Source: an uncultured Rhodospirillales bacterium (GTDB lineage: Bacteria; Pseudomonadota; Alphaproteobacteria; Acetobacterales; Acetobacteraceae). From it: a stretch of DNA of 64,000 nucleotides. The notes under the pieces were generated by a model. That model saw only the letters and a list, made by a program, of their open reading frames with translations, searched no databases and was not told the origin of the DNA. A program made the position numbers and the translations under genes. The DNA lies in assembly GCA_903924855.1 (NCBI GenBank), contig CAIYCW010000040.1, forward strand, positions 88,757 to 152,756, written 5' to 3'. Position 1 is the first letter of the stretch; each line of letters begins with the position of its first letter. This document shows, in pieces, positions 9,869 through 60,335 of this stretch.

Positions 9869-9897
9869 CGTAGGGCGGAAGCCGCAGGCCTCCGCCA
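9869..9897 (+). repeat. half copy of the CGTAGGGCGGAAG...CCTCCGCC dispersed repeat
   Basis: cgtagggcggaagccgcaggcctccgcca; related to 57047-57133 and 59013-59041. Confidence 0.65.
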
Positions 9898-55769: not shown

Positions 55770-56759
55770 ATGAAGACTATCCTCAAGGCCTGCGTGGCCA
55801 TGCTGGCCTTCAGCAGCGCCGCCATGGCGCAGACGCCGGTGAAGATCGGCATCGGCTTCGGCACCGGCTTCCTGCCGCTGTTCATCATGCAGGAGGAACA
55901 TCTGCTGGAGAAGGCCGGCAAGGCGCAGGGGCTTGATCTGGCGGCCTCCTATGTCCGCTTCTCCGGCTCGTCGGCAATGCAGGATGCGGTGCTGTCCGGG
56001 GCGGTCGATATGGGCGTGTATGGCGTCGGCGCCATGCTGATCGCCTGGGACAAGGCGCATGGCACCGCCAACCAGCTGGTGGGGATCGCGGGCGTCAACT
56101 CCACGCCTTTGGTGCTGGTGACCAACAAATCCGGCGCCAAGGATATCGGCGATCTGGCGCCGGATGAGAAGATCTCGATGCCGGCGCTGATCAGCCCGCA
56201 GATGTATGCGCTGCAGCTGATCGCCGAGAAGCGCTTCGGGCCGGGCCAGCAGGACAAGTATCGCACCCAGGTCGTGGCCCTGCCGCACCCGGAATCGGTG
56301 AACGCGCTGATGAGCGGGATCACCGAGGTGCGCGCCTATTTCTCCACCCAGCCGTTTACCAAGATCGCGCTCGACAGCGGCAAGACGCATGTGATCGGCA
56401 CCTCGGAGGATGCATTCGGCGGCCGCTCCACCTTCCTCGCCGCCGGCGCCACCACGCGCTATCTGGACGCCAACCCGAAAATGGCGGCCGTGATGGCGGC
56501 AGCGCTGACCGAGGCGGGCGACATGATCCGCAACGAACCGGAGAAGGCAGCCGCCATCTATCTGAAGACCGAGCCTTCCAAGGTGCTCGATCAGGCCGGT
56601 GTGACGGCGATGCTGAAGGAGGAGAAGGGTGATTTCGGCACCGAGGTCACCGGCGTCAAGACACTCGCCGATTTCATGAACCGCCTCGGCCAGCTCAAGC
56701 GCGTGCCGGCCAGCTATGCCGACGTGTTCGGCCCATCGGTCGGCGCTGGCAGCAACTGA
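55770..56759 (+). CDS. ABC transporter substrate-binding protein (NitT/TauT type)
   Basis: Signal peptide; VKIGIGFGTGFLPLFIMQEEHLLEKAGK...SGSSAMQDAVLSGAVDMGVYG. Confidence 0.85.
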   Translation: MKTILKACVAMLAFSSAAMAQTPVKIGIGFGTGFLPLFIMQEEHLLEKAGKAQGLDLAASYVRFSGSSAMQDAVLSGAVDMGVYGVGAMLIAWDKAHGTANQLVGIAGVNSTPLVLVTNKSGAKDIGDLAPDEKISMPALISPQMYALQLIAEKRFGPGQQDKYRTQVVALPHPESVNALMSGITEVRAYFSTQPFTKIALDSGKTHVIGTSEDAFGGRSTFLAAGATTRYLDANPKMAAVMAAALTEAGDMIRNEPEKAAAIYLKTEPSKVLDQAGVTAMLKEEKGDFGTEVTGVKTLADFMNRLGQLKRVPASYADVFGPSVGAGSN

Positions 56760-57730
56760 GCAAAACTGGCGGCAAGGCCGCGCTCGCTGAGGGCGCGGCC
56801 GATCACCACCAGAAAACTGCCCTCAGCCACGCTCTCCCACGCCGCCTCCGGCAACTTCATCAGCGGGCTCACCACGTGATGCACCGCCTGCAGCACCATC
56901 GGCGGGGTGTGGCCGCGCAGGCGCAGCACGCCCTTGATGCGCAGAATATCGGCGCCGCGCAGGGACAATATCGAGTCAAGCCAGGCCCGCACGCCGTCCC
57001 AATCCACCTCACCAGCACGCAGTATCACCGACGAGATATCCCCAAACGTAGGGCGGAAGAGCGAAGCGGCATCCGCCATGGGCTGCTCCGTTGAGCCCGA
57101 ATGGCGGATGACGCTGCGCTCTTCCGCCCTACGAATGTCCAGCCCCAGCCCAAACACGTCATCCGGGGCGGCCTGCGTCACGATATCGGCGCGCGGGTTC
57201 AACTGCCGGATCACCCCCTCCGCCGCCACACGCTGCGCTGGCGTCGCAAGGTCGGTCTTGGTCAGCACGATCCGATCGGCAAAGGCGATCTGCAGCCTGG
57301 CCGTGTCATGCTCCGCCAGCTGGGCAGGCAGATGCAACGCATCCGCCGTGGTGACAACGCCGTCCAGCCGGCACGCCGCCCCCAGCGCGTGCGCCACCGG
57401 CGCCGGGTTGGCGAGGCCGGTGGTCTCGATCGCGATGCGGGAGAACCAGGGCAGCTCCCCTGCCTCGCGCTTGCGGAACAGCTCGCCCAGCGTGTCCGCG
57501 ATGTCACCGCGCACGGTGCAGCAGATGCAGCCATTCTTCAGCAGCACCGCATCCTCGATCGCCTGCTCGATCAGCAGGTGATCCAGCCCGATCTCGCCGA
57601 ATTCGTTGATGATCACCGCGGTGTCGGCAAGCTGTGGCGCGCACAGCAAGGCGTTGAGCAGCGTGGTCTTTCCGCTGCCCAGAAACCCGGTGAGGATGGT
57701 GACCGGAACCGGATCGTTTTGTGCGTCCAT
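56714..57730 (-). CDS. CobW/COG0523 family GTP-binding metallochaperone-like protein carrying an in-frame palindromic insert
   Basis: VTILTGFLGSGKTTLLNALL, INEFGEIGLDHLLI, LKNGCICCTVRGD, ETTGLANP; insert RRAEERSVIRHSGSTEQPMADAASLFRPT encoded by 57047-57133. Confidence 0.9.
   Translation of the reverse strand: MDAQNDPVPVTILTGFLGSGKTTLLNALLCAPQLADTAVIINEFGEIGLDHLLIEQAIEDAVLLKNGCICCTVRGDIADTLGELFRKREAGELPWFSRIAIETTGLANPAPVAHALGAACRLDGVVTTADALHLPAQLAEHDTARLQIAFADRIVLTKTDLATPAQRVAAEGVIRQLNPRADIVTQAAPDDVFGLGLDIRRAEERSVIRHSGSTEQPMADAASLFRPTFGDISSVILRAGEVDWDGVRAWLDSILSLRGADILRIKGVLRLRGHTPPMVLQAVHHVVSPLMKLPEAAWESVAEGSFLVVIGRALSERGLAASFAQLLPAPTDGPNTSA
57047..57133. repeat. 87-bp palindromic dispersed repeat (CGTAGGGCGGAAG family) inside the CobW-family CDS
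   Basis: Arms 57047-57082 and 57098-57133, about 36 nt each, imperfectly complementary. Confidence 0.9.
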
Positions 57731-57793: not shown

Positions 57794-58999
57794 ATGAGCC
57801 ATGATTCGCGCAACATGCGCCTGATCTTACATGACCTTCTGCAAGGCTTCGGTGGCATCGGGGAGGGCATGAGCCTGCAGGTCACCAGCACCGGGCGCCG
57901 CATCATGTGGCTTGCGCATGAGTCAGCGCCGAAGAACTTCACCGGCGTGGATGTGACCGACCCGAAACATCCGCGCGTGATCTGCCAGACCGATCTGCCG
58001 CATCGCAACGTGCGCTCCAACTCGCTGGAGGTCTGCGGCGATCTGATGGCGGTGGCCTATCAGACCAGCACGCACGGCCTGCAGCCGGCAGGCGTTGAGA
58101 TGTTCGACATCTCCAACCCGGAAGCCCCCCGCGCGATCGGCTTCTTCGACTGTTCCGGCCCCTGCTCGCGCGGTGTGCACCAGGTCTGGTTCATCGACAG
58201 CAAGACGGTGTTCTTCGCAGGCGGTGCGCCGGATTTCACGCCGCGCAACCTGCTCGACGACCAGCCCTTCCGCGCCATCGATGTGTCGGACCCGACCCGG
58301 CCGCGCGAGATCAGCCGCTGGTGGTTCCCCGGCACCGCCCAGGGCGATGACGCGCCGCCGCCGCCGCGGCATCCGAAATTCGATTCCGGCTGGCGCTGCC
58401 ACAACACCAATGTCTATCCGGATCATCCAAGCCGCGCCTATCTCGGCTATCTCGATGGCGGCGCCATCATCCTCGACATCGAGGATCTGTCGAACCCCAA
58501 AATGCTGGCGCATTGGAACCCGCACCCGCCCTTCCCCGGCTTCACCCACACCGCCATGCCGCTGTTCGACCGCAACCTGCTCGTCGTGTCCGACGAATGC
58601 GTGCGCGACGACGGGGAGGACTGGCCGAAGCTGGTCTGGCTGCTGGACATGCGGATGGAGACCAATCTGGTGCCGATCTCCACCCTGCCGCTGCCGGCGG
58701 TGGAGGAGCACATGTATCGCGGCGGGCGCTACGGCGCACACAATCTGCACGAAAACCGGCCCGGCCCGTCCTTCAACTCGGACACTCTGCTCTTCGGCAC
58801 CTATTTCAACGGCGGTGTGCGGGTGCACGACACCAGCAACCCGTTCCAGCCGCAGGAGATTGCGCATTTCGTGCCGGAAGCGCCGGGCAACGGGCAGAAG
58901 GCCATTCAGATCAACGATGTGTATGTGGATGAGAACCGGCTGATCTATGCGGCGGACCGCTTCAATGGCGGGCTGTATGTGATGGAGATGACGGTCTGA
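57794..58999 (+). CDS. LVIVD repeat-containing beta-propeller-like protein
   Basis: Repeated GVDVTDPKHPRVI / VEMFDISNPEAPRAIGFFD / IDVSDPTRPREISR / ILDIEDLSNPKMLA / VHDTSNPFQPQEIAHF. Confidence 0.85.
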   Translation: MSHDSRNMRLILHDLLQGFGGIGEGMSLQVTSTGRRIMWLAHESAPKNFTGVDVTDPKHPRVICQTDLPHRNVRSNSLEVCGDLMAVAYQTSTHGLQPAGVEMFDISNPEAPRAIGFFDCSGPCSRGVHQVWFIDSKTVFFAGGAPDFTPRNLLDDQPFRAIDVSDPTRPREISRWWFPGTAQGDDAPPPPRHPKFDSGWRCHNTNVYPDHPSRAYLGYLDGGAIILDIEDLSNPKMLAHWNPHPPFPGFTHTAMPLFDRNLLVVSDECVRDDGEDWPKLVWLLDMRMETNLVPISTLPLPAVEEHMYRGGRYGAHNLHENRPGPSFNSDTLLFGTYFNGGVRVHDTSNPFQPQEIAHFVPEAPGNGQKAIQINDVYVDENRLIYAADRFNGGLYVMEMTV

Positions 59000-59010
59000 G
59001 GGACGTTGGT

Positions 59011-59043
59011 CCGGCGGAGGCGCTGCGCGCTTCCGCCCTACAG
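59011..59043. repeat. half copy of the CGTAGGGCGGAAG family
   Basis: ccggcggaggcgctgcgcgcttccgccctacag; provides the stop codon of the minus-strand ORF. Confidence 0.65.
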
Positions 59044-59580
59044 CGGCAGCCGGAACGGGCTCATCGGCAGCCCGTTGGCTTGCCAGAACCGGCCCGCGAA
59101 CGGCGCAACCACGCCCCAGGCATCCCCGTCCACAGCGCGCGGCAGCACGGCGTGCATGTGCCGCCCATCCCAGAACGCCAGATCGGCGCGCTGCCATTGG
59201 CCGCCCTGCCGCCACCAGGCCCGCGGCAGCGGGCGCAAGGCGGACCACAGCAGATCCTCCGGCCGATACAGACCGTCAAACCGCGCCAGATCGGCCGCGA
59301 TCTCGGCGCGATGCAGGTCGATCTGCGCCGCGTAGGCGTCCAGCACACGCGCAACCGCGCGTCTGAGCCCCGCATTGTAATCCCCGCATTGCGCCTGCAG
59401 CCAGGCGGTGGTGGCCGCCACCTTGCCCTGATGGCTCGCCACATCAGCCCCCCAGGCGGCTTGCGGCAGCGGCAGGCTGTTCAGCCGCAGCGGTGTTTGG
59501 GCGAGTTCGACAGACGGCAGGCGCGGATCGTCTTCCGCCATCGAGGCCGGCACACGCTCCAGACCGAACAGCAGCCTCAT
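59038..59580 (-). CDS. hypothetical protein, translationally coupled to ABC permease
   Basis: ATG at 59580 overlaps the permease stop; LLWSALRPLPRAWWRQGGQWQRADLAFWDGRHMHAVLPRAVDGDAWGVVAPF. Confidence 0.7.
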   Translation of the reverse strand: MRLLFGLERVPASMAEDDPRLPSVELAQTPLRLNSLPLPQAAWGADVASHQGKVAATTAWLQAQCGDYNAGLRRAVARVLDAYAAQIDLHRAEIAADLARFDGLYRPEDLLWSALRPLPRAWWRQGGQWQRADLAFWDGRHMHAVLPRAVDGDAWGVVAPFAGRFWQANGLPMSPFRLPL

Positions 59581-60335
59581 CTTGGGTTGAATTCGGGATG
59601 CCAGCGCAACAGCCGCCGGCGCAGCGCCGTCATGCCGGCGACCGCCACCAGCCCCACCACCGAGGTCTGCACGATGCCGGAGAACACGCCCGGGCTGTCC
59701 GCGTAATTGCCCGCCGCCAGCATGGCACCCCCAAGCCCCGCACCGCCCATCAGCATCTCGGCCGCCACCGCCGTGATCAGCGACACCGGAAGGGCGATCT
59801 GCATGCCGGTGAGGAATTGCGGCATCGCGGCCGGCAGGATCACCTCGCGGAACAGCTGATACCGCCCCGCCCCCATGGCACGTGCCGACCACAGCATGAA
59901 CTTGTCCACACCCCGCGTGCCGGCCTCCGCCGCCGCCACCACGGCGAACACCGCGGCAAAACACACCATGACGATCTTCGAGACGTCATAGACCCCGAAC
60001 CACAGCATGAACACCGGCAGAAACGCGATCTTCGGCATCGGAAAGCCTACCGACACCAAAGGCTCGGCAAACCAGCGCACGAAGCGGTCCGAGGCGATCA
60101 GAATGCCCGCCGGCACCCCGATCAGGCAGGCCATCGCAAAGCCGATCAGCGCGCGATAGAGCGTGAGTGCCGCATTCATCTCGAACTGGCCGGAGATCAC
60201 ATCCTTCCAGATCCGCCCCGCCACCACATGCGGCGCCGGCAGCAGGAAGGGCTTCACCAGATGCAGCAGCGCCGCCCCTTCCCACACCGCGAGCAGCACG
60301 ACGATCGGCGACAGCCGCGCCAGAAGCCGCATCAT
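59577..60335 (-). CDS. ABC transporter permease (SsuC/TauC type)
   Basis: Six-TM permease; MGAGRYQLFREVILPAAMPQFLTGMQIALPVSLITAVAAEM. Confidence 0.9.
   Translation of the reverse strand: MMRLLARLSPIVVLLAVWEGAALLHLVKPFLLPAPHVVAGRIWKDVISGQFEMNAALTLYRALIGFAMACLIGVPAGILIASDRFVRWFAEPLVSVGFPMPKIAFLPVFMLWFGVYDVSKIVMVCFAAVFAVVAAAEAGTRGVDKFMLWSARAMGAGRYQLFREVILPAAMPQFLTGMQIALPVSLITAVAAEMLMGGAGLGGAMLAAGNYADSPGVFSGIVQTSVVGLVAVAGMTALRRRLLRWHPEFNPR

Follow-up and report, generated by a model that had tools for sequence, protein, structure and literature searches.

The locus studied here raises the question of how an 87-bp imperfect palindrome came to lie in frame within a protein-coding gene, and whether such an event happened once or several times among related bacteria. 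The palindrome lies in the window, the 64,000-nucleotide stretch of DNA that we analyzed, which derives from a MAG (G000) that we judged to belong to the Acetobacteraceae from the gene's named relatives, which are MAGs of that group. REPINs are short mobile bacterial hairpins of a common kind whose usual location is between genes. The palindrome (57047-57133, no strand assigned) is a REPIN, a pair of inverted GTAG-tagged REP sequences joined as a head-to-head dimer. Its arms (57047-57079 and 57101-57133) are 33 nucleotides each, 94% complementary and separated by 21 nucleotides. Both units have a GTAG foot and a short stem-loop, with the stem GGCGGA/TCCGCC around the loop. The first unit, GTAGGGCGGAAGAGCGAAGCGGCATCCGCC (57048-57077, plus strand), has one change compared to the family form GTAGGGCGGAAGAGCGAAGCGTCATCCGCC, while the second, inverted unit, GTAGGGCGGAAGAGCGCAGCGTCATCCGCC (57103-57132, minus strand), is exactly the common family form; an unstranded spacer (57078-57102) separates them. 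The two inverted units fold into one hairpin: folded as single-stranded DNA, the element reaches -47.9 kcal/mol, compared to a mean of -17.4 for shuffled sequences (z = -12.2; 0 of 200 shuffles).

The host gene, which occupies 56714-57730 on the minus strand, encodes 338 amino acids from a probable start at 57730, and the insert forms residues 200-228. The ORF is open to 57802, and the ATG at 57730 is probably the true start, because the nearest relatives show stop codons in the upstream extension. When we searched Pfam with the 362-aa ORF, cobW (PF02492) matched residues 33-208 and CobW_C (PF07683) residues 257-350. Together with the P-loop and CxCC-type motif in the G domain, these matches identify a COG0523/CobW GTPase; the nearest solved structure is YjiA (1nij, E = 1.8e-39). 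The insert, at residues 224-252 of this longer ORF, falls exactly between the two domains, as the original prediction had proposed in placing it in a variable loop there. The further proposal that the palindrome lies wholly within the coding sequence and keeps the frame also held: its length is 29 x 3, and the minus-strand ORF stays open across it, encoding RRAEERSVIRHSGSTEQPMADAASLFRPT, a 29-residue insert that contains the stretch SVIRHSGSTEQPMADAASLFR. Translation of the insert is predicted solely from this open reading frame. In an AlphaFold2 model built on a shallow alignment of 13 sequences, the insert had pLDDT values of 35-45 and the domains before and after it were mostly >70, which is consistent with the peptide being a disordered passenger.

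A divergent gene at 57794-58999 (plus strand) encodes a 401-aa protein that is 86-88% identical across the genus. It adjoins cobW in every close relative checked, suggesting that the two may form a conserved functional pair. We expected an SBP56-type protein, but Pfam returned just a weak LVIVD repeat.

We next considered where the palindrome came from. The original prediction described a dispersed, amplified repeat of mobile type that had turned protein-coding, and such a repeat is abundant elsewhere in this genome: the REP half matched 77 places at ≤3 mismatches, compared to 3 for a reversed control pattern. BLAST listed at least 100 matches, and dozens of copies of the REP family are present in this Acetobacteraceae genome. 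They are dispersed and mainly extragenic; almost every other copy that we examined is intergenic. At the 53 loci that we read, the family form recurs as single units, head-to-head dimers, and tandem arrays. Arrays with a 60-67 bp period occur on contigs C59, C61, C98, and C121, and several of them reach contig ends. Within the window, two half copies that had been predicted in non-coding positions both exist outside the cobW gene and are apparently non-coding, with coordinates one or two bases away from those first given (9869 and 59011): a single REP-like unit, GTAGGGCGGAAGCCGCAGGCCTCCGCC, at 9870-9896 (plus strand) and a single REP of the same family, GTAGGGCGGAAGCGCGCAGCGCCTCCGCC, at 59013-59041 (minus strand). 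The TAG of the latter forms the stop codon of a minus-strand ORF at 59038-59964.

The same genome carries a cognate REP-associated tyrosine transposase (RAYT) flanked by the REP family of the cobW REPIN. This RAYT (C59:333-731) is intact, with an uninterrupted 167-codon ORF, an HMH motif, and a YVHFNP tyrosine region, and it scores 170 bits against NCBIfam NF047646 (cut-off 80). Five REPs of the cobW-REPIN family lie upstream and a REPIN of that family directly downstream; the stop codon of the RAYT gene is the TAG from the GTAG of this REPIN. A search with the Pfam Y1_Tnp profile (PF01797) detected no RAYT for want of sensitivity, the score of 20.3 bits falling short of the cut-off (23). Since the C59 RAYT is intact and flanked by exactly this REP family, it is the likely mover of the family. 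A sister genome also has a RAYT (G004:C517), with another REP variant, GTAGGATGGGTGAGCGCAGCGCTACCCATC, on its flanks, so the genus harbors at least two REP-RAYT lineages. As members of the HUH class of enzymes, RAYTs bind single-stranded REPs through the GTAG and cleave at the adjoining CT, and their cleavage and strand transfer have been carried out in vitro for other species (PMC8266576).

To what extent do other copies lie within genes? Using a codon-usage filter, with Pfam searches of the best candidates, we found no other convincing intragenic copy among the 53 loci, and across the G000 and G004 copies that we surveyed, cobW was the only convincing intragenic location. The survey took in only copies similar to the REP family of 57047-57133. 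The codon scoring, which we retrained after training on the longest ORFs of the window proved unreliable, serves only as a rough filter; the G004 cobW gene itself scored just 0.08. Large ORFs spanning single REPs were rejected as coding inserts: their codon scores were poor and, of those tested, only an SDR matched Pfam. This candidate was also rejected, as its REP sits in a 5′ extension before the domain. At least two of the six frames were open in every REPIN that we examined, and REPINs are thus by nature easily translated. A length divisible by three was found in 2 of 20 intergenic head-to-head dimers in the genus versus all three of the cobW inserts described below (87, 84, and 51 bp). 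Divisibility by three is a requirement of an intact gene, and at cobW it shows that these genes were kept open.

We examined the same linker in sister species. All data are MAG sequences; G000 is 84.5% complete, G006 is 74% complete, and the cobW gene of G004 is split over two contigs. In G004, an 84-bp REPIN of the same family occupies the same linker in the same frame and encodes the peptide RRAEERSVNRQAVGAGKAADDAALFRPT. In G006, a 51-bp GTAG palindrome, again in the same linker and frame, encodes a 17-aa peptide, CRAGASRRPVAGYARPT. The REP family of its units is matched at 19 places in G006 (control, 0) and at no more than 5 in any of the sister genomes. The cobW linker of G001 contains no palindrome or insert. 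Among approximately 55 family homologues with readable linkers, GTAG...CTAC palindromes were present in only G000, G004, and G006; G001 and approximately 50 others have no REPIN, and most of those approximately 50 carry a His-rich stretch there. Homologues without the palindrome also lack the peptide, which disposes of the reading of this segment as a protein feature conserved independently of the repeat. As for a relative lacking exactly this segment, G001 is unoccupied, but its linker has diverged and does not provide a base-for-base empty site. We searched the three cobW sites for target-site duplications and a shared flanking motif and found none that was clear or consistent; missing target duplications are as expected for RAYT chemistry.

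The cobW orthologues of G000, G001, G004, and G006 have all lost the His-rich interdomain loop typical of most family homologues. This loss may reflect a changed metal specificity.

We consider it very probable that the palindrome is a RAYT-moved REPIN that landed in frame in a permissive cobW linker, and that at least two sister species carry different REPINs in this linker. According to this explanation, loss of the His-rich loop by the COG0523 protein in this Acetobacteraceae lineage would have left a permissive, disordered linker. Inverted GTAG REPs, folded as a single-stranded hairpin, would be moved in trans by the cell's RAYT, and a REPIN with a length divisible by three would have landed in the linker in a frame in which the TAG of its own GTAG is not read as a stop codon. 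The cobW gene would thereby have stayed open and gained a 29-residue linker peptide, probably disordered and functionally neutral. The same linker in at least two sister species would have received other REPINs, or had its REPIN replaced. The RAYT-driven step, the neutrality of the peptide, and the independence of the insertions are predictions of this model.

Did the linker receive REPINs repeatedly? The arms of the cobW REPINs are recent. In G000 and G004, 16 of 17 shared residues in the arms are specified by identical codons, compared to 53 of 107 in the flanking coding sequence (Fisher p = 4e-4), while the loops of the two REPINs, including the center of the G000 spacer, do not align (p = 0.75); both p-values are post hoc. 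An old inherited insert is disfavored because its arms would show the same synonymous divergence as the flanks. These data favor separate insertions, or repeated replacement or conversion; we lean toward separate insertions, or an insertion that was later replaced, in a linker released from constraint. The COG0523 linker may be a coding hotspot at which unrelated REPINs have repeatedly landed in frame in sister species, a proposal that we put forward tentatively and to which we give a little less than an even chance. If true, a protein linker evolves through replacement of mobile hairpins that are repeatedly inserted or swapped. Independent hits at one linker in three species would be improbable unless REPINs prefer this target or a REPIN was already present there.

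A pre-existing REPIN is the core of the strongest alternative. A single REPIN may have entered the cobW linker before the genus diversified, been inherited by G000, G004, and G006 and lost in G001, and had its arms renewed from each genome's dispersed family, through gene conversion or REP-into-REP replacement. The linker and reading frame are common to the three species and the right-hand junction is nearly so, and with cobW as the sole convincing intragenic site in the G000 and G004 copies surveyed, repeated independent hits would need a special reason. In addition, REPs occupy at least one intergenic locus in G000 and G004 alike, the two genomes differing in REP subtype, revealing that shared positions and sequence turnover also occur outside genes. 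Against a single ancestral insertion, G001, which has no insert, groups with G004 in trees of the divergent neighbor and of both proteins together (support 90-93; G006 branches next and G000 falls outside), although a tree of cobW alone does not resolve this grouping (support 35). Moreover, the G000 and G004 loops are unalignable, the left junctions lie several codons apart, and the REP family of the G006 element is abundant only in G006. On balance, we regard a single ancestral insertion as possible but rather doubtful.

The landing of a RAYT-moved REPIN in a permissive linker also has to be weighed against selection for the insert itself. The peptide or the mRNA hairpin could have been recruited for GTPase function, for example as a substitute for the His-rich metal loop or as a brake on translation between the domains. 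In-frame REPINs in three species where relatives carry a His-rich loop would fit such a role, as would the very stable fold. However, the 17-aa peptide of G006 resembles the others at its ends only and G001 has none, the G000 peptide contains a single His, the loop sequences are unrelated, and the AlphaFold2 model has no confident structure for the insert, all of which make recruitment unlikely. It is very improbable that the locus is an assembly chimera in which two different sequences were joined through the repeat. Contig ends in this assembly do often carry REP copies, and such repeats break short-read assemblies. However, the sequences on either side of the insert are the N- and C-terminal portions of a single orthologue, whose neighbors to the left and right are conserved in G006 and G007. 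Typical reads are longer than the insert, which lies in the interior of a 152-kb contig, and the assembly of G004 independently yielded an equivalent insert.

The insertion of a REPIN into the cobW linker thus has to be set beside known cases. GTAG REPs inside ORFs have already been described, mostly as dimers or groups that add 20-30 residues, and different REPs occur at about the same recB site in two Xanthomonas species (PMC3733652). The cobW element shares with these dimers the GTAG terminus, the stem-loop unit, the head-to-head arrangement, the location within a coding sequence, and the addition of 20-30 amino acids. It differs from them in lineage and gene (COG0523, Acetobacteraceae), in that the cognate RAYT is located, and in that three sister species carry REPINs in one linker, one of them from another REP family. 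As in Pseudomonas fluorescens SBW25, two inverted REPs form one hairpin that is the dispersed unit and a RAYT is present in the genome (PMC3116915); in contrast to SBW25, where nearly all REPs lie outside genes (overlap with genes is limited to 14 16-mers; PMC3116915), the cobW copy is fully coding. The enterobacterial RU-1, RU-2, and RU-3 repeats that are fused into ORFs are likewise small, non-autonomous mobile repeats with ORFs in annotated genes, but they are longer and MITE-like (103-168 bp) and are not GTAG-REP dimers (PMC2759123).

The original prediction compared the palindrome to Rickettsia palindromic elements. The comparison was right in concept, as both are in-frame palindromic repeats in genes, tolerated as extra peptide, but it named the wrong family, since the cobW element is a GTAG-tagged REPIN with a cognate RAYT. 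Intragenic R. conorii REPs, which have been equated with RPE-4 and RPE-6, are of the CGTC class and hit many genes (PMC3733652). A Rickettsia-type element would be defined by its consensus and its in-frame presence in many unrelated genes of one genome; here the class is GTAG and one gene per genome was found, cobW. Class and gene count thus set the two apart.

Because intragenic GTAG REPs are already described (PMC3733652), the cobW REPIN is a fresh case of a known phenomenon and no new kind of system. Its contribution is to bring together a donor family, the cognate transposase, a relative whose linker is unoccupied, and two sister species whose linkers contain other REPINs, making a well-bounded natural example of a bacterial mobile hairpin becoming protein sequence. 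The three-species comparison allows one to ask whether genic REPINs are inherited passengers, or are repeatedly inserted or replaced at permissive linkers.
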